Source: Bacteroidales bacterium (GTDB lineage Bacteria; Bacteroidota; Bacteroidia; Bacteroidales; JAIOZK01). Taken from it: DNA of 64,000 nucleotides. The notes beneath the pieces were generated by a model. The model worked only from the letters and a program-made list of their open reading frames with translations. It had not been told where the DNA came from and ran no database searches. The stretch spans positions 1 through 64,000 of the forward strand of contig JAIOZK010000019.1 in the NCBI GenBank assembly GCA_021740625.1, in the 5' to 3' direction. Shown here piece after piece: positions 17,332 through 43,801 of the stretch (within the stretch, counting starts at the first letter, position 1; every line of letters starts with the position of its first letter). The translations under genes and the position numbers were made by a program.

Positions 17332-17361
17332 TTTGGTATGCAAAGCATTCTGTTAAATTTG
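17332..17361 (+). promoter_or_regulatory. Near-consensus Bacteroidota promoter
   Basis: TTTG at 17,332-17,335, an 18-base spacer, then TAAATTTG at 17,354-17,361. This matches the -33/-7 consensus (TTTG-N19-TAnnTTTG) better than any other site in the window. It places the transcript start near 17,368 and makes the ATG at 17,338 untranslatable. Confidence 0.7.
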
Positions 17362-32933: not shown

Positions 32934-34181
32934 ATGAATAAACTATTACAATTTACTTTTACAGGGATAGTCATTATTTCACTGAGTATTTCAGGATTAT
33001 CCCAGACAACTGATTCCATCGAAATGGGTGGCAATTATGCAAATGACATTTTTTACAGTTTCGAGAATGGTGAAGTAAAAAGCGTTGACCGGGCCAACTG
33101 GGATATTGCTTTTTATACCGACATTTTTAGTGCTACAATTACCATCAATGAAGGCAGCGGTGTGGAACTCTGGGCATATCCCAACGGAGATACCTCAGCC
33201 TGGAACACAATTGACACCACAGGCCTGAGCACCTGGCCCAAACTTTATAATTCCGAAGAAACCTGGGATTTTGGTGCATTTAACCAGAATGCAGGCTCAC
33301 ATCCGGACTATGGCTGGGGAATATACAACGATATAACCCATAACCTCACTGGCGATTCACTGTTTATCATCAAACTGGCCAACGGTATGTATAAAAAGAT
33401 GTGGATCGTTAAAAAGTATTCTGCTGAAAACAGGTACATCTTCCGCTACGGGGATCTTGACAACAGCAATGAAATGGAGAAAGATTATGTTTTATCTGAC
33501 TACACTGCCAAAAACTTTTCTTACTATTCAATCAGCAATGATGAATTATTGGACCGCGAACCACCCAGGGATTCCTGGGATATTGTCTGGACAAAATACG
33601 TTGCGGCCCAACCCCAGGGAGGTGTTTATCCTGTTACCGGGATCCTGAGCAATGTTCATGTTGCGAACAGCAAATTTCACCCTGTCTCCTTAAACTATTC
33701 GGATTGGCTTGCAGCCCCACTGGATACTATAAAATCAGGCATTGGATTCGATTGGAAAGAGCTCGATTTTGTGAACTTTGAATATGATATTGTTGACTCG
33801 ACAGTCTACTTTGTGAAAGATGTAAACGATAACATTTATAAGTTATATTTTGAATCTTTCCAGATCGGCACAGGCAAAACAGTTTTCGTAAAACAAAATG
33901 TTTCATCAACCGATGTTGCAGAGTTTTTGCCCAGTATCGACATCAATGTCTATCCCAATCCGGCCAGAGATATTGTTAATATCGAAATGAATGGAACTGC
34001 TCATGAAACGAACATTGCTATCTATGATGTCACTGGAAAAGAAATGATCAGCAGAGATATCAACAAAGATCAAGCTGGTATCATTACATTTCAGCTTGAC
34101 CAATTAAAAGAAGGCATGTATTTCATGTTGATCAAAACGGGCAACCTTACTCAATCCCATAAGATCATGATCAGCAATTAA
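32934..34181 (+). CDS. HmuY-like protein with T9SS sorting domain
   Basis: 415 residues. Signal peptide (ISLSISGLSQ). Two HmuY-type hallmark segments are seen, ANWDIAFYTDIF near residue 55 and DSWDIVWTKYVAAQPQGG near 220, each followed by beta-rich sequence; between them are beta strands with KKMWIVKKYSAENRYIFRYGDLD. HmuY proteins bind haem (or act as haemophores) for TonB-dependent import. The last 85 residues form a T9SS type A sorting domain (DINVYPNPARDIVNI, LKEGMYFMLIKTG, KIMISN), so this copy should cross the outer membrane. It is first of a three-gene operon: the receptor starts nine bases later. Haem ligands cannot be assigned by eye. Confidence 0.8.
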   Translation: MNKLLQFTFTGIVIISLSISGLSQTTDSIEMGGNYANDIFYSFENGEVKSVDRANWDIAFYTDIFSATITINEGSGVELWAYPNGDTSAWNTIDTTGLSTWPKLYNSEETWDFGAFNQNAGSHPDYGWGIYNDITHNLTGDSLFIIKLANGMYKKMWIVKKYSAENRYIFRYGDLDNSNEMEKDYVLSDYTAKNFSYYSISNDELLDREPPRDSWDIVWTKYVAAQPQGGVYPVTGILSNVHVANSKFHPVSLNYSDWLAAPLDTIKSGIGFDWKELDFVNFEYDIVDSTVYFVKDVNDNIYKLYFESFQIGTGKTVFVKQNVSSTDVAEFLPSIDINVYPNPARDIVNIEMNGTAHETNIAIYDVTGKEMISRDINKDQAGIITFQLDQLKEGMYFMLIKTGNLTQSHKIMISN

Positions 34182-34189
34182 AGAGATCA

Positions 34190-36427
34190 ATGCATATCCA
34201 TAGAATATTCATAGTATTTATCATCAGCCTGCTGGCCGTTTATTCTGTCATGGGTCAGCAGGCTGTTATTACCGTTCTCGATCAAAAAAGTGACAAGCCT
34301 GTATCTTTTGCACATGTGAGTTTCGAACCCCTGGGCGATGGCAAGGTGTTCAAAGCACTTACCAATGAAAAGGGGATTGTGGAAAATAAAGCCAATACAA
34401 AAGCCAGCCTGGGTATCAGTTATGTCGGTTACAAAACACTTCAGCAGGAGATCGAGCCCGGAAAGAGCTACACCTTCAGGCTGATCCCCAATATTCTTAA
34501 CATTGATGAGGTAGTTGTAACAGCACAATACGCGCCCAAACGGGCTGATAAATCCATATATAAAGTAAAGGTGATCAATCGCCAGACCATTCAGAACAAA
34601 GCTGCCAACAGTCTGGATCAGGTCATGGAAAATGAATTGAACATTCGTGTTTCAAGAGATGGTGTGTTGGGATCGGGGATGAGCCTGAACGGTTTGTCGG
34701 GTGAACATCTGAAGTTTCTGGTCGATGGCGTTCCGGTGATCGGACGACTGAACGGGAACATCGACATAAGCCAGTTGAATGTTTACAACATTGATCACAT
34801 AGAATTTGTAGAAGGACCCATGTCGGTAATTTATGGCAGCAATGCCATGGCAGGGGTTGTAAATCTTATCACCAGCGAAAACCAGAATTATAAAAGCTAT
34901 ACAAATCTGCAGGGATATTTTGAGTCGGTTGGGGAATATAATTTCAATGCAACAACCTCCCTCAGATATGATCACCACATTTTCCAGGTTTCCGGCGGAA
35001 GGGATTTCTTTGCCGGATATTCCGAAAACAATACAGGCCGTTCCAAACTCTGGAAACCAAAGAGAGCCTATTTCCTGGATGGGTCATATATTTATGATAA
35101 GGAACGCTTCAAGCTCAAATTCAAAACTTCATATTATGATGAATTCCTGCTGAGCAAGGGCAATCTGAGAAAACCCTATTTTGAAACTGCATTTGACAGT
35201 TATTTTTATACCAAACGTTTTACCAACAAACTTGACATTAGCAAAAAAGTACTGTCGAACCGCTACCTGAACATCTTAACGGCTTATTCTGTTTTCGACC
35301 GGAAAACAAAAAATTACTTTGTGGATCTTACCAAGCTTGAAAAAACATTGCGGGATGCCGATACAACAAAATTTCATTCAGCTATGCTCAGGGGCACTTT
35401 CAGCAAAAGCGACGAAGGCAGGTTCAATTACCAGCTTGGTATTGATCTCAACCTGGATTATGGCTCCGGGGAGAAAATAGACGGGGGCTCTAAAGAGTTG
35501 GGTGATTACGCTGCTTTTCTCAGTATAAAATACAAACCCGTCGAAAAGCTTTTACTACAACCGGGTATCCGTCTGATCTACAATACGAATTACGATGCCC
35601 CCCTGGTATATTCCATGAATGCCAAGTATGACTTCTATGATCATCTGAGCATGCGAGGCTCCTTTGCCAGGGGATTCAGGGCACCGTCTCTCAAAGAACT
35701 TTATCTTGATTTTGTGGATGTAAATCATAAGATATTTGGGAACGAAAATCTGAAGGCAGAAAGATCATACAATATCAATGGCTCCTTATTATACCATGCC
35801 GATCGGGAAAAACATGTGTATGAAGCGGAGCTGAATTATTTCTATAACTATATAGAAAACAGCATTGACCTTGTTATACGCGAAGATGAGGTAGGCAATG
35901 ATCCGGCCAATTCGGTTCCTCCCTATACTTACCTGAACCTGAACAAATATGCAACAACAGGTTTTGGCCTGAGTCTGAATTACAGGTACTATCCCAATCT
36001 CAATGTTAAAGCAGGACTTAATCGCACAAACAGCATCATTTCACACGAAAATGTTGCAGATCAGCAGGCCATGAGTACCGATTATAATCTGTCATTGAAT
36101 TACAAATGGATCAGGTATGATCTGGATATTTCAATCTTTTACAAGTACAATGGCAAACTTCCGATCTTCAGCGTGAACACGGAGGATGAGATCGCCCTGA
36201 CCTACAAGGAGAATTTCCAGAACCTTGACTTCGCAATCGGGAAATCCTGGTTTGAGAACAGCCTTTACACAAACGCCGGTTTGAAAAATATTTTTGACAA
36301 CAAAAGGATTCCATATACTGGAAGTACTTCAGGTGGAGTGCATACCGGGGGAGATGGTTCTTCGCTTGTCGGCTATGGCAGAACGTTTTTTCTCTCCGCT
36401 TCTTATACCATAAAATACCTGAAATAA
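34190..36427 (+). CDS. TonB-dependent outer-membrane receptor, haem-receptor-like
   Basis: 745 residues. Signal peptide, then a carboxypeptidase-regulatory-like domain (about 25-110; VLDQKSDKPVSFAHVSF), a plug (about 115-240; NSLDQVMENELNIRV, VDGVPVIGRLNG, VEGPMSVIYGSNAMAGVVNLI) and a 22-strand-type barrel ending with an aromatic-containing strand (SASYTIKYLK). The barrel carries GFRAPSLKELYLDFVDVNH and GNENLKAERS, resembling the FRAP and NPNL boxes of haem receptors such as HmuR. It imports its ligand using TonB energy. Flanked by HmuY-like genes on both sides; the next ATG overlaps this stop codon (TAATG). Haem specificity is inferred from these boxes and the neighbours. Confidence 0.88.
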   Translation: MHIHRIFIVFIISLLAVYSVMGQQAVITVLDQKSDKPVSFAHVSFEPLGDGKVFKALTNEKGIVENKANTKASLGISYVGYKTLQQEIEPGKSYTFRLIPNILNIDEVVVTAQYAPKRADKSIYKVKVINRQTIQNKAANSLDQVMENELNIRVSRDGVLGSGMSLNGLSGEHLKFLVDGVPVIGRLNGNIDISQLNVYNIDHIEFVEGPMSVIYGSNAMAGVVNLITSENQNYKSYTNLQGYFESVGEYNFNATTSLRYDHHIFQVSGGRDFFAGYSENNTGRSKLWKPKRAYFLDGSYIYDKERFKLKFKTSYYDEFLLSKGNLRKPYFETAFDSYFYTKRFTNKLDISKKVLSNRYLNILTAYSVFDRKTKNYFVDLTKLEKTLRDADTTKFHSAMLRGTFSKSDEGRFNYQLGIDLNLDYGSGEKIDGGSKELGDYAAFLSIKYKPVEKLLLQPGIRLIYNTNYDAPLVYSMNAKYDFYDHLSMRGSFARGFRAPSLKELYLDFVDVNHKIFGNENLKAERSYNINGSLLYHADREKHVYEAELNYFYNYIENSIDLVIREDEVGNDPANSVPPYTYLNLNKYATTGFGLSLNYRYYPNLNVKAGLNRTNSIISHENVADQQAMSTDYNLSLNYKWIRYDLDISIFYKYNGKLPIFSVNTEDEIALTYKENFQNLDFAIGKSWFENSLYTNAGLKNIFDNKRIPYTGSTSGGVHTGGDGSSLVGYGRTFFLSASYTIKYLK

Positions 36428-37440
36428 TGAAGAAAGCATTATTCATATTGATCATATCCATCGGATTGACCTCCTGTTTTAAAGAGGATGAAAGATTAGA
36501 GCCACACGATCCGGGTGATGCAGTGACCGTGCAGGTAGATATGACAAAGGATTACAGATACCAGGTTTATTACGACCTGGAATCAGAGCGTATTGTATCA
36601 CAAAACCTCAAAACAGAATGGGACCTTGGATTTGAAACTTCGGATACCGGCTGGCATGTGATCCTGAACACTGCCAATTTTATGTGGGCCGGAAATACCG
36701 GGAAAACGGATTTCTCCCAGAGCATAGATACTACCGGACTGGAATGGAAGTTTGACAAATCCGATGGAAACCTCGATTCAACGGCCATCGGCAGATGGTT
36801 TGAAATATTGGCTGGAGATACCACTTACACCAATCATGTATACGCCATTAACAGAGGATATACGCCTTCGGGTGATTTGCGCGGTATTAAAAAGATAATA
36901 TTTCAATTTGTTGATAATAATCAATACCGGATTGCCTGGGGTAATGTTGATGACACAGAACCCAATGTATTCACCATTGAAAAAGACAGCAGCATGAACT
37001 TTGTTTTCTTTTCCTTTGGTGATGGTGGTCAGCAGAAAAACCTGGAACCCCATAAAAAAGATTGGGATCTGTGGTTTACACAATACACCACAATCTTGTT
37101 GACCAACGAGGGCGATCCCTATCCATACCTCGTAACGGGTACCCTGATCAATAAATATCAAAATACAATGGTAACACAAGACAGCATTGCAAGTTTCCAA
37201 CAAATTGATTATCAAAAGGCATTGGCACTGAACTATACCAAAGCTCTGGATGTTATTGGTTACAACTGGAAAGTAATAGAAGGGGATGTGCAATCAGGGA
37301 ATGTGAATTATGTGATCCGGGAGAATTTGTTCTACATTATACGGACACAGGATGATTTTTATTACAAACTGAGGTTTATTGATTTTTATAATGATGTGGG
37401 TGAGAAAGGTTATCCTACATTTGAATTCCAGCGATTATAG
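36427..37440 (+). CDS. HmuY-like lipoprotein
   Basis: 337 residues. N-terminal lipobox LTSC (Cys at residue 16), so it should be lipid-anchored, probably at the outer leaflet. The same paired hallmark seen in the first HmuY-like protein recurs: TEWDLGFETSDTGWH near residue 65 and KDWDLWFTQYTTIL near 215, with TGTLINKY after the second, as TGILSNVH follows in the paralogue. It is translationally coupled to the receptor by a one-base overlap. It probably captures haem or a similar porphyrin and hands it to the receptor. The operon ends at a terminator 45 bases downstream. Confidence 0.85.
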   Translation: MKKALFILIISIGLTSCFKEDERLEPHDPGDAVTVQVDMTKDYRYQVYYDLESERIVSQNLKTEWDLGFETSDTGWHVILNTANFMWAGNTGKTDFSQSIDTTGLEWKFDKSDGNLDSTAIGRWFEILAGDTTYTNHVYAINRGYTPSGDLRGIKKIIFQFVDNNQYRIAWGNVDDTEPNVFTIEKDSSMNFVFFSFGDGGQQKNLEPHKKDWDLWFTQYTTILLTNEGDPYPYLVTGTLINKYQNTMVTQDSIASFQQIDYQKALALNYTKALDVIGYNWKVIEGDVQSGNVNYVIRENLFYIIRTQDDFYYKLRFIDFYNDVGEKGYPTFEFQRL

Positions 37441-38050: not shown

Positions 38051-40993
38051 CTATTCCCCCCTCGGATCCTGCCTGATCGGCAATTTCGCCATTTTCTCTA
38101 CTTCTATGGTAGCATAGCCGAATTCTTCCACTACCTTGCCTTTGATCAGGTACACCCCATATCCCTGAAAAGGATACCTCTGCAAGGATTGTGAAAAATG
38201 TGTGCAATCGAAAAACTCACCTTTTTGATCGACAAAAGTGCCGAATGCCATCCATTCTTTCTTCACCGTGATCACCTTCTTGATGGTGACCAGCAAACCC
38301 AGCATTCGTATGCTTTTTCCCAGATAATCGTTCAGTTGATTTGCTTCTGCCTCTCCCCTGAAACGGGTTTCAAGCAAATCGAAATAAGTCAGTGTAACCG
38401 GAAAACCCAGGTATTCGATCTCATCATAGGCATCCTCTATTTTATTATATGCAAGCTGAGGAAGCTTAAATCGCCGGGCAGGCGAAAAGAAAAGTTCGTG
38501 ATTCTTTCCCTGTTTTTTATCTTTGCTCAACATCATATGCGCCTCCCACAAAAGATGAGCTTTCTCCTTGCCGGTAAATGCAAATGCCCCCGTCCTGATC
38601 AGGATGATCAATTGCTCAATGCCCGTTGGAACTCTTTTTACAAAATCTTCCAGGCTTTTGAAATCTCCCCGCAACGCTCTTTCTTCAGATATCAAATGCC
38701 CAATTTTGTTTTCCAGGTCGGCAATGTGCACAAAACCGATGTAAATGGTATCGCCATCAATCCTGCTCTTGTAATGGCTTTTGTTGACCGAAGGGAGCAT
38801 GATCTTTGCCCCCTGCCGCCGGGCTTCGTTGAAATACACCCAACTGTGATAAAACCCGCCAAAGTTGTTGATCACTGCCGTCATGAATTCCAGAGGATAA
38901 TGCGCTTTCAGGTACAGGCTCTGAAAACTCTCCACGGCATAGGAGGCTGAATGGGCCTTGGAGAAAGAATATCCTGCAAAGGATTCGATCTGCCGCCAGA
39001 TCTCTTTGGTGGTTTCTTCGGGCCTCCCTTTTTTGCGACTGTATTCAAAAAATCGATCCACGATGCGCTGAAACTCCTCTTTGTTCCTGTATTTCCCGCT
39101 CATGGCCCGGCGCAGGATGTCCGCATCGGCCAGGTCAAGTCCCGCGTAATGATGACATATCTTGATCACATCCTCCTGGTATACCATCACCCCATAGGTT
39201 TCTTTCAGTTGTTCTTCCATCACCGGATGCAGGTAATCAAAACCCTCAGGGTAGTGAAAACGCTGAATATATTCCCGCATCATCCCCGATTTGGCCACAC
39301 CCGGGCGGATGATGGAACTGGCTGCCACCAGGCTGATATAATTGTCGCATCTGAGTTTTCTAAGCAATCCGCGCATGGCGGGGCTCTCGATATAAAAGCA
39401 TCCGTTCGTTTCAGCAGTCTTTAACTGCATTTTCACCTGGGGATCGCTTTTGAATTTTTTCACCTGGTGCACGTCAACCTTTTCTCCTCTGTTCTCCCGG
39501 ATGATCTCAACTGCCTCATTGATATGGCCGATCCCCCGCTGACTCAGTATATCCAGCTTTTCAAAACCGATATCCTCCGCCACATACATATCCCATTGCA
39601 CTGTTGGCAATCCCTTTGGAGGAAGATCCAGTGCAGAATAATAGTTGATGGGCCTTTCTGAGATCAACACCCCGCCTGCATGTATGCTCCTGATGTTGGG
39701 AAAATCGATCATCATCTGAGCAAAAGAGTATATGGTCTGATTGATGTGATTATCATGGATGTGTTTGTGGGGTTCGTTGGCCAGATCATCGATCTCCGCC
39801 TTTGGCAAGCCATATACTTTTCCCAGTTCACGATAAATGGATTTGCCTTTGAAAGTGGTGATGGTGCCAAGCAAGGCCGTATGTTCCCGGCTGAATTTCC
39901 GGAAAATATAATCATGCACTGCATCCCTGTCCTTCCAGGAATAATCTATGTCAAAATCAGGCGGACTGCTGCGGTGCGGGTTTATGAAACGTTCAAAATA
40001 AAGGTCAAGCTCAATGGGATCCACATCGGTGATCTTCAGGCAGTATGCCACAATACTGTTGGCACCACTACCCCTTCCTACATGGTAGATCCCCTGCGAC
40101 ATGGACCAGGAAATGATATCCCAGGTGATCAGGAAATAGGCAGAAAAACCCAGTTGATGGATCACTTCCAATTCATGATCAACCCGCCTGCGTGCCTCAT
40201 CATGCTTTTCGCCATAACGGTATGCAAGGCCTTCACGACAAAGTCTCTCAAGCAAAAGCTTATCTTCATATTTGCTCCCTGTATAAGTTGCTTTGTTTTT
40301 GATCGACTTATATTCAAAATCGATGTTGCATTCCCCAATCAATTTTTCAGTGTTCCGGATGATCCCGGGATAATCCCGGTAAGCTTTGGACAGTTCTTCT
40401 TTCGACACAAAATGCTCATTTTCCGGAGCGATCTGTTCAGGTCTCAGTTTCGTGATCAGCGTGTTGTGATCTATGGCCCGCAGGTTGCGGTGAAGATAAT
40501 AAGCTTTTTCATCCCTGAAGGTCACCGGCTGCCACATGATCAACCTATCCGTTGCATTTCTGAATTCCGACGTATATAACTTATTCAGTTGATTTCGTTT
40601 GATTCCAATATATTCGTTTTCTTTGAGATCTCTCAAAGATTTTGTACCAAAGGGGTAAACGAGGATGGCATGATCAAAATCGGGCGAAATTGCAGGAAGT
40701 TTCTGTTTACTCAGGTTATGATAGCTCAGGTACTCGTTCAACTCCTGGAAACCCGCATTGTTTTTAGCGATGCCTGTAAAAAGCCTTTGATCCTTATTCC
40801 TGAAATCAATTCCTGCAAGCGGTTTCACGCTCTTTTTTTTACATGCCTTCACAAAGTCGAGGATCCCGGTTGAATTGTTGATGTCGGCCATGAGTTGCCC
40901 CTCAAAACCATGTTTCAGGTTCTCATTGACAAGTTCGTCTATGGACATAGTCCCATAACGCAGGCTGTAATATGAATGTGATTTCAAGATCAT
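38051..40993 (-). CDS. DNA polymerase III alpha-type subunit, short DnaE form
   Basis: 980 residues, shorter than the replicative DnaE (about 1,150 or more). Catalytic Asp pair in PPDFDIDY (D346/D348, with D350) and the third site in EKLDILSQRG match DnaE polymerases. HVGRGSGANSIVAYCL, LREL-type fingers (YRELGKVYGLPKAEI) and MRREY-like motifs (YGVMVYQEDV, LRRAMSGK) are as in the family. The N-terminal PHP domain starts HSYYSLRYGTMS and lacks an H-x-H metal pair, so the PHP active site looks degenerate. These short DnaE proteins are often mutagenic or repair polymerases that work with ImuA/ImuB-like partners; none is adjacent. The replicative role is possible but less likely. Confidence 0.85.
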   Translation of the reverse strand: MILKSHSYYSLRYGTMSIDELVNENLKHGFEGQLMADINNSTGILDFVKACKKKSVKPLAGIDFRNKDQRLFTGIAKNNAGFQELNEYLSYHNLSKQKLPAISPDFDHAILVYPFGTKSLRDLKENEYIGIKRNQLNKLYTSEFRNATDRLIMWQPVTFRDEKAYYLHRNLRAIDHNTLITKLRPEQIAPENEHFVSKEELSKAYRDYPGIIRNTEKLIGECNIDFEYKSIKNKATYTGSKYEDKLLLERLCREGLAYRYGEKHDEARRRVDHELEVIHQLGFSAYFLITWDIISWSMSQGIYHVGRGSGANSIVAYCLKITDVDPIELDLYFERFINPHRSSPPDFDIDYSWKDRDAVHDYIFRKFSREHTALLGTITTFKGKSIYRELGKVYGLPKAEIDDLANEPHKHIHDNHINQTIYSFAQMMIDFPNIRSIHAGGVLISERPINYYSALDLPPKGLPTVQWDMYVAEDIGFEKLDILSQRGIGHINEAVEIIRENRGEKVDVHQVKKFKSDPQVKMQLKTAETNGCFYIESPAMRGLLRKLRCDNYISLVAASSIIRPGVAKSGMMREYIQRFHYPEGFDYLHPVMEEQLKETYGVMVYQEDVIKICHHYAGLDLADADILRRAMSGKYRNKEEFQRIVDRFFEYSRKKGRPEETTKEIWRQIESFAGYSFSKAHSASYAVESFQSLYLKAHYPLEFMTAVINNFGGFYHSWVYFNEARRQGAKIMLPSVNKSHYKSRIDGDTIYIGFVHIADLENKIGHLISEERALRGDFKSLEDFVKRVPTGIEQLIILIRTGAFAFTGKEKAHLLWEAHMMLSKDKKQGKNHELFFSPARRFKLPQLAYNKIEDAYDEIEYLGFPVTLTYFDLLETRFRGEAEANQLNDYLGKSIRMLGLLVTIKKVITVKKEWMAFGTFVDQKGEFFDCTHFSQSLQRYPFQGYGVYLIKGKVVEEFGYATIEVEKMAKLPIRQDPRGE

Positions 40994-41130
40994 GATAGTT
41001 GCATGAATTGAAATACCGGAAAAATATTTGATTAGTATTTAAGCATACCCGATTATCTTAAGGTACTACAATTTTACATGCGATCATAATTTAGACAGAA
41101 TATAAATGCAAGGAAGAGGACTGTATAAAC

Positions 41131-41161
41131 TTTCAGAATAAGCAACATTTGGGTAAATTTG
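41131..41161 (+). promoter_or_regulatory. Promoter of the cytochrome operon
   Basis: TTTC at 41,131-41,134, a 19-base spacer, and TAAATTTG at 41,154-41,161. The -7 box is perfect and the spacing ideal; the -33 element differs by one base from TTTG. The ATG at 41,175 follows 13 bases later. Confidence 0.6.
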
Positions 41162-41174
41162 TTTTTCGACCAAA

Positions 41175-42542
41175 ATGAACAAGATGAAAATCAAGCCACA
41201 ATTCATTTTTATACTTACTCTTTTTGTAATCCTGGTAAGTTCCTTCAGCCTGGTAAAAGAAATTGACAAGCGTTTCGGAAGTTTGAAATACAAGGATTTC
41301 GAGTCGCCGGAATATTGCGGAGCTTCCTGTCATGTGCAGTTTTACCGGCAGTGGGAGCAGGCCATGATGTCGCAGGCATATACACATCACTGGGATGAGA
41401 TCGAGTATTTCGAGCTGGCGGTACCCCATTCCGAAAATGATCCGGATTTTGAAGGTGTGCATGACGGATGCAACGGTTGCCACACCCCCATGGCTTATCT
41501 GGCGGGTGATGTACCTCCACCCCGGCCAGAAGAGGGCAGCCGCGCCAACGAAAGTGTTTCCTGCGACGTATGTCATACCATAACAGGCTTTGAAGGAGAT
41601 GTTCCTTTCAACTTTAATTATATCATTGAACCCGGCCAGACCAAATACAGCTCAAGAAAAGGAGAAAAAGATTCCCCCAATCATGAGATCAAAGTGAGCG
41701 AACTGCATGCAAAATCAGAATTCTGTGGCATCTGTCATAATGAAAAAAGCCCCTTTGACACCTGGGTTAAATCCACACATCTCGAATGGAAGGAAGGCCC
41801 CTATGCAAAAGAAGGTGTCCAATGCCAGGATTGCCATATGCCCAAAGCCCGGTTCAGAACTGCAGCCATGGGCACGACTTATGACGATACCAGGATGCAT
41901 CTCTTCCACGGTGCACACAGCCCGACCAAAATAAAAGGAGTTGTAGAACTCCGCATGAATCCTGATATCAGGCAGGCAGTTCCGGGAGAGCCTGTGGTTT
42001 TCACCCTTTCCCTCTTCAACCAGAAAACAGGACATAAATTCCCAACCGGTTCGGTAGAAGACAGGATATTATGGGTGCATGTGGAGGCCGAAGATGCAGA
42101 AGGCAATGTTTACCACCTGCCGGTGGATAAAAAAGATTTTGAAGGGGAAGAATATACCATTGCAAGTGATGTGTTGGCTTACCAGGATATGGCTGTCCCC
42201 CTGGAGAAACCTGACTTTAAAGGTGTGAGAAGAGAGGACGTGCCCTTGGGCGACAGAATTTTCCGGATGCCCTTTTTCGATCCGCAGGGAAGAATGACCA
42301 TTATGCAATGGAATACAGATTCTTTGGGCGTGGATTACCGCATCGGTCCGCGGGAAACAATAGTGGAAACCTATACTTTCAATCTCCCCTATGAAACAGC
42401 GCCCGGGATGATGAAAGTCAGGGCCATAATGAATTACCGGCTGCTGGTGAAACCCGTTGCAGAACTGCTGGGTGTACCGGAGGAGGAATATGCCATCCGC
42501 GAAATTAACAGAACAGAAACGGAAATAGAAGTTTTGCCATAA
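41175..42542 (+). CDS. Pentahaem c-type cytochrome
   Basis: 455 residues. An N-terminal hydrophobic segment (FIFILTLFVILVSSFSLV) is a signal or anchor. Five haem-attachment motifs are seen: C48-GAS-CH (three spacer residues instead of two), C99-NG-CH, C130-DV-CH, C184-GI-CH and C217-QD-CH. The region GASCHVQFYRQWEQAMMSQA resembles the first haem region of cytochrome c554-type proteins. The C-terminal half (about 265-455) is a beta-rich domain with TGHKFPTGSVEDR, common to this group. It should work in the periplasm or at the outer membrane carrying electrons. The next gene, a haem-porin fusion, starts 17 bases later, so the pair is an operon. No lipobox seen. Confidence 0.88.
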   Translation: MNKMKIKPQFIFILTLFVILVSSFSLVKEIDKRFGSLKYKDFESPEYCGASCHVQFYRQWEQAMMSQAYTHHWDEIEYFELAVPHSENDPDFEGVHDGCNGCHTPMAYLAGDVPPPRPEEGSRANESVSCDVCHTITGFEGDVPFNFNYIIEPGQTKYSSRKGEKDSPNHEIKVSELHAKSEFCGICHNEKSPFDTWVKSTHLEWKEGPYAKEGVQCQDCHMPKARFRTAAMGTTYDDTRMHLFHGAHSPTKIKGVVELRMNPDIRQAVPGEPVVFTLSLFNQKTGHKFPTGSVEDRILWVHVEAEDAEGNVYHLPVDKKDFEGEEYTIASDVLAYQDMAVPLEKPDFKGVRREDVPLGDRIFRMPFFDPQGRMTIMQWNTDSLGVDYRIGPRETIVETYTFNLPYETAPGMMKVRAIMNYRLLVKPVAELLGVPEEEYAIREINRTETEIEVLP

Positions 42543-42545
42543 AAC

Positions 42546-42552
42546 AAGGAGG
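42546..42552 (+). promoter_or_regulatory. Strong Shine-Dalgarno site of the haem-porin gene
   Basis: AAGGAGG, seven bases before the ATG at 42,560. It supports that ATG over the TTG at 42,554 and is unusual among genes of this window. Confidence 0.7.
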
Positions 42553-42559
42553 ATTGGAA

Positions 42560-43801
42560 ATGAAAAGATTTGTACACATTGGAATTGCTGTGATATTCGT
42601 ATTGCTCATAACAGATGCTGCACAGGCAATTCCGGCTTTTGCCAGAAAATACAACATGAGTTGTATGACATGTCATAATCCTATACCGCGGTTGAAAGCA
42701 TATGGAGATAGTTTTGCCGGCAACGGGTTTCAACTGGAAGACAGGAAAGCACCGCGTTATACAGTGGAAACAGGTGATAATTTGTTATCCCTGATCCGGA
42801 ATTTCCCCCTTGCCGTCAGGCTGGATGGTTATGCTTCCATTGAACATCATAAAAACAAGGAAAATGAAACCACTACTGATTTTAGAACACCCTTTCTTCT
42901 GAAATTATTGTCGGGAGGTTCGCTTTCAGAACACCTTGCCTACTATTTCTATTTTTACATGGATGAAAGAGGAGAAGTTGCCGGGGTGGAAGATGCCTAC
43001 CTGATGTATAACAATCTCTTCAACATAGACCTGGACATTTACCTCGGACAATTCCAGGTTTCTGATCCACTCTTTAAAAGGGAGCTGAGATTGACCCTGG
43101 AAGATTATCACATTTACACGGTATCTCCCGGAATTTCCAATATTAATTTAAAATACGACAAGGGTGTGATGGTGACACTGGGAACCAATTTCGGTACTAC
43201 CATCGTGGGCGAGGTGCTGAATGGCAATGGAATTGGGGAGGCCAATGAAAACTGGCAATTCGACAACGATAAGTATAAAAATCTGATGGGCCGGGTTTCC
43301 CAGGATGTCAGCGATTTCCTCCGCATAGGTGCATTCACATATTATGGCAATGAAGCCATACATTTCCAGGATCTTTATATTGATTCTGAAAAGATCGCAA
43401 CTTATGATGGTAAAAATGAAGCAGTTTTATGGGGCCCTGATATGAGCATTGCCCTGAATGATAAATTTGAGTTCAATCTTCAGTACTTGCAGAGGACCGA
43501 CAGCCGTGTGATTGATATGGATCCCAAAGGAGAATACCAGCTATATAAGGATGTAAAAACACAGGGCGGTTTCGGAGAAATAATATTCACTCCGAAAGGA
43601 GACAAAAGCCGATGGTATCTGGTTGGTTTATACAACTGGACAGATTCCGACCTGGATGACCTGGATTTCCAGTCGGCATCCATCCAGGCCGGATACCTGC
43701 TTAGGAGGAATGTTCGCCTCGTATCTGAATATTCTTACAACTTTTCACACGAGAACAGGGAATGGTGGCGGGGCAGCCTGGGATTTGTAGCGGCGTTCTA
43801 A
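42560..43801 (+). CDS. Cyc2-like cytochrome-porin fusion
   Basis: 413 residues from the Shine-Dalgarno-supported ATG. Signal peptide (IGIAVIFVLLITDAAQA), then a single haem c motif C35-MT-CH in the segment IPAFARKYNMSCMTCH, and a following PRLKAYGDSFAGNGF. This arrangement (PxFARxxxxxCxxCHxxxPxLxxxG) resembles the N-terminus of Cyc2-type fused monohaem porins. The remaining 350 residues are alternating beta strands of an outer-membrane barrel, ending in a strand with a terminal aromatic (WWRGSLGFVAAF). The family role is electron transfer across the outer membrane, with iron oxidation known for some members. Paired with a pentahaem cytochrome. Direction of electron flow and substrate are not known here. 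Confidence 0.82.
   Translation: MKRFVHIGIAVIFVLLITDAAQAIPAFARKYNMSCMTCHNPIPRLKAYGDSFAGNGFQLEDRKAPRYTVETGDNLLSLIRNFPLAVRLDGYASIEHHKNKENETTTDFRTPFLLKLLSGGSLSEHLAYYFYFYMDERGEVAGVEDAYLMYNNLFNIDLDIYLGQFQVSDPLFKRELRLTLEDYHIYTVSPGISNINLKYDKGVMVTLGTNFGTTIVGEVLNGNGIGEANENWQFDNDKYKNLMGRVSQDVSDFLRIGAFTYYGNEAIHFQDLYIDSEKIATYDGKNEAVLWGPDMSIALNDKFEFNLQYLQRTDSRVIDMDPKGEYQLYKDVKTQGGFGEIIFTPKGDKSRWYLVGLYNWTDSDLDDLDFQSASIQAGYLLRRNVRLVSEYSYNFSHENREWWRGSLGFVAAF

Follow-up and report, generated by a model that had tools for sequence, protein, structure and literature searches.

Overall organization of the locus

The window analyzed here is a stretch of 64,000 nucleotides from a Bacteroidales bacterium (GenBank assembly GCA_021740625.1, contig JAIOZK010000019.1, positions 1 to 64,000 of the forward strand). 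It harbors two adjacent genes, one for a multihaem c-type cytochrome and one for a Cyc2-like haem-porin, whose products may form an electron conduit through the outer membrane. The two open reading frames (ORFs) are co-directional on the + strand, at 41175-42542 and 42560-43801, and are separated by a gap of exactly 17 bases, in agreement with the spacing given in the initial annotation of this DNA. A Shine-Dalgarno ribosome-binding site, AAGGAGG, lies inside the gap at 42546-42552 (+). The upstream gene encodes a protein of 455 residues with a Sec-type N-terminus, which the ORF, Pfam and profile matches identify as a pentahaem cytochrome of the PHC family (Thermochromatium tepidum c552 / ExtKL-like). 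The downstream gene encodes a fused monohaem cytochrome-porin of 413 residues, identified from its ORF and by hhalign. Its ATG at 42560 matches the start position of the orthologues.

The haem-porin is a member of the Cyc2 superfamily

According to Keffer et al. (2021, PMC8406198), Cyc2 is defined by the motif AXPXFAR[Q/K][T/Y] ahead of a CXXCH, a following PXL and a 16-strand OprO/OprP-like porin; the criterion given there is a length of more than 365 residues with a C-terminal 16-strand OprP-like porin. The N-terminus of the window porin reads AIPAFARKY-NMS-CMTCH-NPI-PRL, and the long remainder of the chain carries no further haem motifs. The signature AIPAFARKY (42626-42652, +) is located at the end of the signal peptide and matches the consensus AXPXFAR[QK][TY] exactly, and this consensus occurs once in the six frames of the 64 kb window. 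The motif scan places the single haem c site, CMTCH, at 42662-42676 (+), and the PXL motif, PRL, is found 4 residues after the CXXCH at 42686-42694 (+). The segment IPAFARKYNMSCMTCH...PRLKAYG, from which a likeness to Cyc2 had first been suspected, is indeed present. Among the 36 porin orthologues the Cyc2 motif is exact in 25 and replaced by close variants in the others, and one haem site is retained in every orthologue along with the motif region. One porin gene, L024 of genome G070, is interrupted in frame by a TGA where an invariant glycine (residue 55) should be encoded, pointing to either a sequencing error or a recent pseudogene.

An AlphaFold2 model of the porin, built with 12 orthologues, contains 16 strands (42812-43795, +) with a mean predicted local distance difference test score (pLDDT) of 70.5 and a predicted template modelling score (pTM) of 0.70. 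Its best match among solved structures in a fold search is OprP (2O4V, E 5e-14), which also served as the structural template for Cyc2 (PMC8406198). A barrel of enough strands had been set beforehand as a test of the initial annotation, and both the 16-strand prediction and the top match to OprP speak in its favor. The fold search was the only informative one of its kind, as no Pfam or NCBIfam model matches the porin and searches of PDB sequences with the single sequence and with the profile returned nothing meaningful. The hhalign comparison used 17 Chlorobi-type Cyc2-like proteins from the same phylum, picked by similarity and motif and not named references, and the porin family aligned with them over the whole length at 100% and E 2.7e-42, and over the barrel only at 99.3% and E 7e-21. 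The proposed resemblance to Cyc2 is therefore upheld by the exact motif and by barrel homology beyond the motif. Read against the published definition, the window porin has the motif, the single CXXCH with PXL, a length of 413 residues, a predicted 16-strand OprP-like barrel and a barrel homologous to that of Cyc2-like proteins. In the porin tree, for which the program warned of long branches, the 36 family members are split from the 17 Cyc2-like proteins by a branch with a Shimodaira-Hasegawa-like approximate likelihood ratio test (SH-aLRT) value of 99. Because of the profile homology and this branch, we assign the porin on sequence grounds to the Cyc2 superfamily as a clade of its own, apart from the sampled Cyc2-like proteins of the same phylum.

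The partner cytochrome and its haem sites

The partner was initially annotated as a pentahaem cytochrome. Four canonical sites are found, CNGCH (residue 99, 41469-41483), CDVCH (residue 130, 41562-41576), CGICH (residue 184, 41724-41738) and CQDCH (residue 217, 41823-41837), all on the + strand; both Cys and the His of the first of these are invariant, and so are the other three sites. The count of five depends on a non-canonical CX3CH site, CGASCH (C48-GAS-CH, residue 48, 41316-41333, +), which was recognized from the motif and the orthologues. At this position the 31 full-length orthologues have CX3CH in 23 cases and CXXCH in 8, with at least 4 switches between the two along the tree. Because CXXCH occupies the position in 8 of the 31, the CX3CH is very probably a haem site, and the simplest reading of the sequences is that both forms bind haem. 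CX3CH motifs have also been counted among haem sites in earlier surveys (PMC5566968).

The haem-rich part, with all five sites in the N-terminal half of the chain, is followed by a C-terminal domain (41937-42539, +) that is beta-rich in a low-confidence model, may be Ig-like and contains an invariant GHKxPxGS motif in the orthologue alignments. The alignment of the family has 11 invariant histidines, 5 in the haem motifs and 6 elsewhere, and the six outside the motifs would suffice as distal ligands for bis-His ligation of five haems. One residue of the C-terminal domain, H287, is a candidate distal haem ligand.

The window cytochrome exceeds the Pfam cut-offs of PF13435 and PF03264. A profile of 30 orthologues matches T. 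tepidum c552 (5ZE8) with an E value of 4.9e-10 in three ordered stretches, with collinear haems and continuing to the C-terminus, where the beta-rich domain aligns with the C-terminal part of 5ZE8. All 30 orthologues match the ExtKL model NF040886, the window protein at 45.9 bits against a curated cut-off of 250. Local matches to NrfA-type reductases are weak, and those to MtrC/DmsE models are likewise weak only. The PHC family, which includes ExtKL and the sPHC of cable bacteria, has been described as structurally similar to c552, linked to AvECN and provided with an Ig-like domain (PMC11976967). The orthologue profile also matches the archaeal nanowire protein AvECN (8E5G), weakly (E 0.003) and over the haem region only. 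A two-gene bacterial nanowire system, in which the pentahaem partner would assemble into a polymeric cytochrome wire attached to the haem-porin, appears highly improbable to us; if real, it would join a Cyc2-type protein to a multihaem wire.

No lipobox was found in the 31 cytochrome orthologues, and the family scan revealed no tail of the type IX secretion system (T9SS) in the window cytochrome. Because of these two results, the cytochrome is most likely located in the periplasm, as far as its sequence can tell. Selenocysteine was considered and rejected, as the TGA of orthologue L025 (genome G287) lies upstream of the start codon; the window cytochrome gene has no in-frame stop, so it has no selenocysteine codon.

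The properties of the two proteins also bear on an explanation without any conduit. The barrel could be a solute porin whose haem serves for sensing or redox gating, and its partner a soluble periplasmic reductase of the admitted substrate, such as nitrite, a sulfur oxyanion or selenite. OprP-type barrels, the best fold match, conduct anions, ExtI has been proposed to admit selenite to ExtKL (PMC5877670), and the weak local NrfA-type matches of the cytochrome point the same way. However, the haem site and the Cyc2 motif region are kept in all porin orthologues, and the invariant histidines would be enough for all five haems, leaving no obvious open catalytic haem. We regard the solute porin as an unlikely explanation.

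The two genes are conserved as a pair

Co-occurrence of the two genes had been named beforehand as a check, and it was examined in 395 Bacteroidota genomes spread over the phylum, with a close porin orthologue taken as one with E <1e-40. Both genes are present in 26 genomes, the porin alone in 1 (G148), the cytochrome alone in 0 and neither in 368 (Fisher p about 1e-39, a statistic uncorrected for relatedness), so that 26 of the 27 porin-bearing genomes also carry the partner, an outcome in favor of the initial annotation. In 36 of 37 porin loci the gene immediately upstream is that of the cytochrome. The gap measures 18 bases or less in 28 of the 35 measurable pairs and is mostly 6-24 bases. 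Order, orientation and spacing are kept in many families of at least 4 phyla. An accidental adjacency of two genes with unrelated jobs is effectively refuted by the co-occurrence and by this conserved arrangement.

The pair was described at first as a Bacteroidota version of the fused porin with its own multihaem partner. The partnership holds, but the taxonomic frame was too narrow, since the pair is also found in contigs labelled Glassbacteria, Zixibacteria (Zixiibacteriota) and Krumholzibacteria (Krumholzibacteriia), labels of metagenome-assembled genomes that may err. At other Cyc2-like loci the pentahaem partner is found in 0 of 20, and several of them have a small monohaem cytochrome instead. 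Therefore, the pairing is a trait of this porin clade. The small monohaem cytochrome gene adjoins other Cyc2-like genes of the phylum at loci L086, L089, L093 and L100, and at L088 two Cyc2-like genes lie near a 10-CXXCH gene. No third gene is consistently near the pair, the recurrent neighbors being two-component regulators, a TonB-type protein and unrelated enzymes; nor is a second porin or an outer-surface multihaem gene consistently found there.

The pair reaches its highest frequency in family f18, a group of apparent Ignavibacteria. One carrier genome, G188, is very probably that of the cultivated Melioribacter roseus, judging by its oxidase and nrfA genes, which stand where MROS_0038, MROS_1513 and Mros1098 are expected. 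Related Bacteroidales contigs carry the pair as well, and the module was not found in any of the 39 genomes sampled from the order of the window outside its own genus. The porin tree has the Bacteroidales branch beside Glassbacteria, with weak support, inside a tree rich in Ignavibacteria. This placement, together with an order mostly devoid of the pair, hints at lateral transfer.

A putative two-protein electron conduit

The pair may well be a two-protein outer-membrane electron conduit, consisting of the haem-porin and a dedicated periplasmic pentahaem relay, and we hold this to be the probable function. The conduit already suggested in the initial annotation gains support from the predicted 16-strand barrel, the Cyc2 barrel homology and the co-occurrence in 26 of 27 genomes, while the crossing of electrons, their direction and the substrate stay inference. 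In the proposed mechanism, the Cyc2-like protein would be exported and inserted into the outer membrane as a 16-strand porin, and the one haem c near its N-terminus would sit at the pore or inside it. Its pentahaem partner, exported without a lipid anchor, would act as a periplasmic relay between the porin haem and the inner-membrane respiratory chain, where alternative complex III, cytochrome c oxidase or NrfHA could form the other end. The haem in the pore, the periplasmic site of the relay, the contact of the two proteins and the electron flow are all inferred. By analogy, the kinship of the partner with ExtKL would also favor a conduit, as Geobacter ExtKL is encoded beside the porin-like ExtI, itself similar to phosphate-selective porins.

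Several points weigh against the conduit. The structure model of the cytochrome is poor (pLDDT 48.9); in that of the porin, the haem domain has a pLDDT <50 and its position in the pore is not visible. Locus L073 (G148:C13:33532-34662) is the sole close porin orthologue with no cytochrome gene anywhere in its genome, which is 100% complete by estimate. In favor of the conduit, all 21 carriers examined encode proteins of both the haem-copper oxidase and the NrfD families. However, a haem-copper oxidase-family gene is present in 368 of the 395 phylum genomes (93%), and the oxidase in carriers therefore says little on role or direction.

NrfA is found in 21 of 26 carriers versus 41 of 369 non-carriers. 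Inside the best-sampled family the proportions are 10/13 and 5/12 (p 0.11, not significant), for which reason shared ancestry is taken to confound the association. The enrichment may be read as a sign of Fe(II)-linked nitrite ammonification; ancestry may explain it instead.

If the pair is a conduit, electrons could be carried in either direction. A conduit committed to uptake would be a true Cyc2-type enzyme that oxidises dissolved Fe(II), or a different small donor, and delivers the electrons via the relay to the reduction of oxygen, nitrite or nitrate. Uptake of electrons from Fe(II) or another reduced donor is favored by Cyc2 biochemistry, as the Cyc2 proteins assayed so far oxidise Fe(II) (PMC8406198) and the window porin has the Cyc2 signature and barrel; the oxidase-family genes and the NrfA counts of the carriers are consistent with it. 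On the other hand, the porin clade branches separately from the sampled Chlorobi-type Cyc2-like proteins, the described periplasmic partners of Cyc2 are Cyc1-type cytochromes of another family, and the NrfA link loses significance in the best-sampled family. We consider uptake possible but doubtful.

A conduit working outward would pass electrons from the side of the quinone pool through the pentahaem cytochrome to the haem-porin and on to Fe(III), humics, selenite-like anions or a partner cell, which we likewise consider possible but doubtful. Export is favored by the low potential described for the PHC relative c552 (PMC11976967) and by ExtKL, whose expression is tied to Fe(III), on which it is more abundant, and which with ExtI is linked to selenite reduction (PMC5877670). 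The Ignavibacteriaceae, a lineage of the kind rich in carriers, are also listed among the Fe(III)-reducing taxa (PMC6344600). The likeness to ExtKL is remote, however, as the score of 45.9 bits against 250 indicates, and the locus is without an outer-surface multihaem gene.

Upstream region and neighboring genes

A near-consensus promoter had been annotated in front of the pair, which was not borne out. Ahead of the start, no sigma-70-like site on the + strand does better than the one at 41073-41101, which matches at 9 of 12 positions, and the upstream region contains 7 such sites versus 8.6 ± 3.1 in shuffles, not above chance. The Bacteroidota-type pattern TTTG-N17-23-TANNTTTG has its sole exact match in the 64 kb window at 17332, far from the pair. 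The left neighbor, at 38051-40993 on the opposite strand, is DNA-polymerase-like judging by its sequence and looks unrelated to the pair. About 4 kb upstream, the region 32934-37440 encodes an HmuY-like protein with a T9SS tail, a TonB-receptor-like protein and a second HmuY protein, a cluster likely for haem acquisition.

Implications

Metagenome surveys have already recorded Cyc2-like genes in Bacteroidota, Ignavibacteriaceae and Krumholzibacteriota (PMC6344600, PMC9769843), and the presence of Cyc2 homologues in Bacteroidota is therefore not new. No account of this porin clade or of its fixed pentahaem partner was found in the open-access papers searched, subscription papers not being covered. 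Cyc2 homologues recur in organisms for which iron oxidation is not known, and a widespread and almost invariant two-gene unit, with a named partner from the ExtKL/c552 family, provides a handle on their role there. If it is a true conduit, it would be a minimal one, a haem-carrying barrel with one relay, in a layout unlike those of the Mtr, Ext and ordinary Cyc2 systems, and extracellular electron exchange would extend to many heterotrophic Bacteroidota and allied phyla. Melioribacter roseus, the presumed cultivated carrier, is an organism in which the pair can be tested. The switching of site 1 between CX3CH and CXXCH within one family (L002-L038) offers in addition a natural experiment on how far haem attachment depends on a strict CXXCH.

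Comparison with known systems

Similar to Cyc2 of A. ferrooxidans, Cyc2PV-1 of Mariprofundus and Cyc2 of Chlorobium, the window porin has the AXPXFAR[QK][TY]-CXXCH-PXL arrangement, a length of about 400 residues, a predicted 16-strand barrel with OprP as template, and barrel homology. However, the window family has a fixed pentahaem partner, and its carriers are mostly not known iron oxidisers. In the Geobacter extHIJKLMNOPQS cluster, a phosphate-porin-like porin, ExtI, also stands beside a PHC-family pentahaem cytochrome, ExtKL (PMC5877670). The present system differs in being a two-gene unit whose porin has its own haem and whose cytochrome has no selenocysteine and scores far below the ExtKL cut-off. 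T. tepidum c552 (5ZE8) shares the collinear haem-rich and C-terminal parts of the window cytochrome, whereas the CX3CH at haem 1 in most members and the coupling to a haem-porin gene distinguish the window family. AvECN (8E5G) shows a weak profile match over the haem region, and PHC is linked to it by structure in PMC11976967; it has four haems in 262 residues, in contrast to the five haems and C-terminal domain of the window cytochrome. In the porin-cytochrome complexes MtrAB/MtoAB and OmbB-OmaB-OmcB, a barrel and a multihaem cytochrome are likewise encoded side by side, whereas in the window system the barrel itself carries a haem, and neither a separate haem-free porin nor an outer-surface multihaem gene accompanies it.

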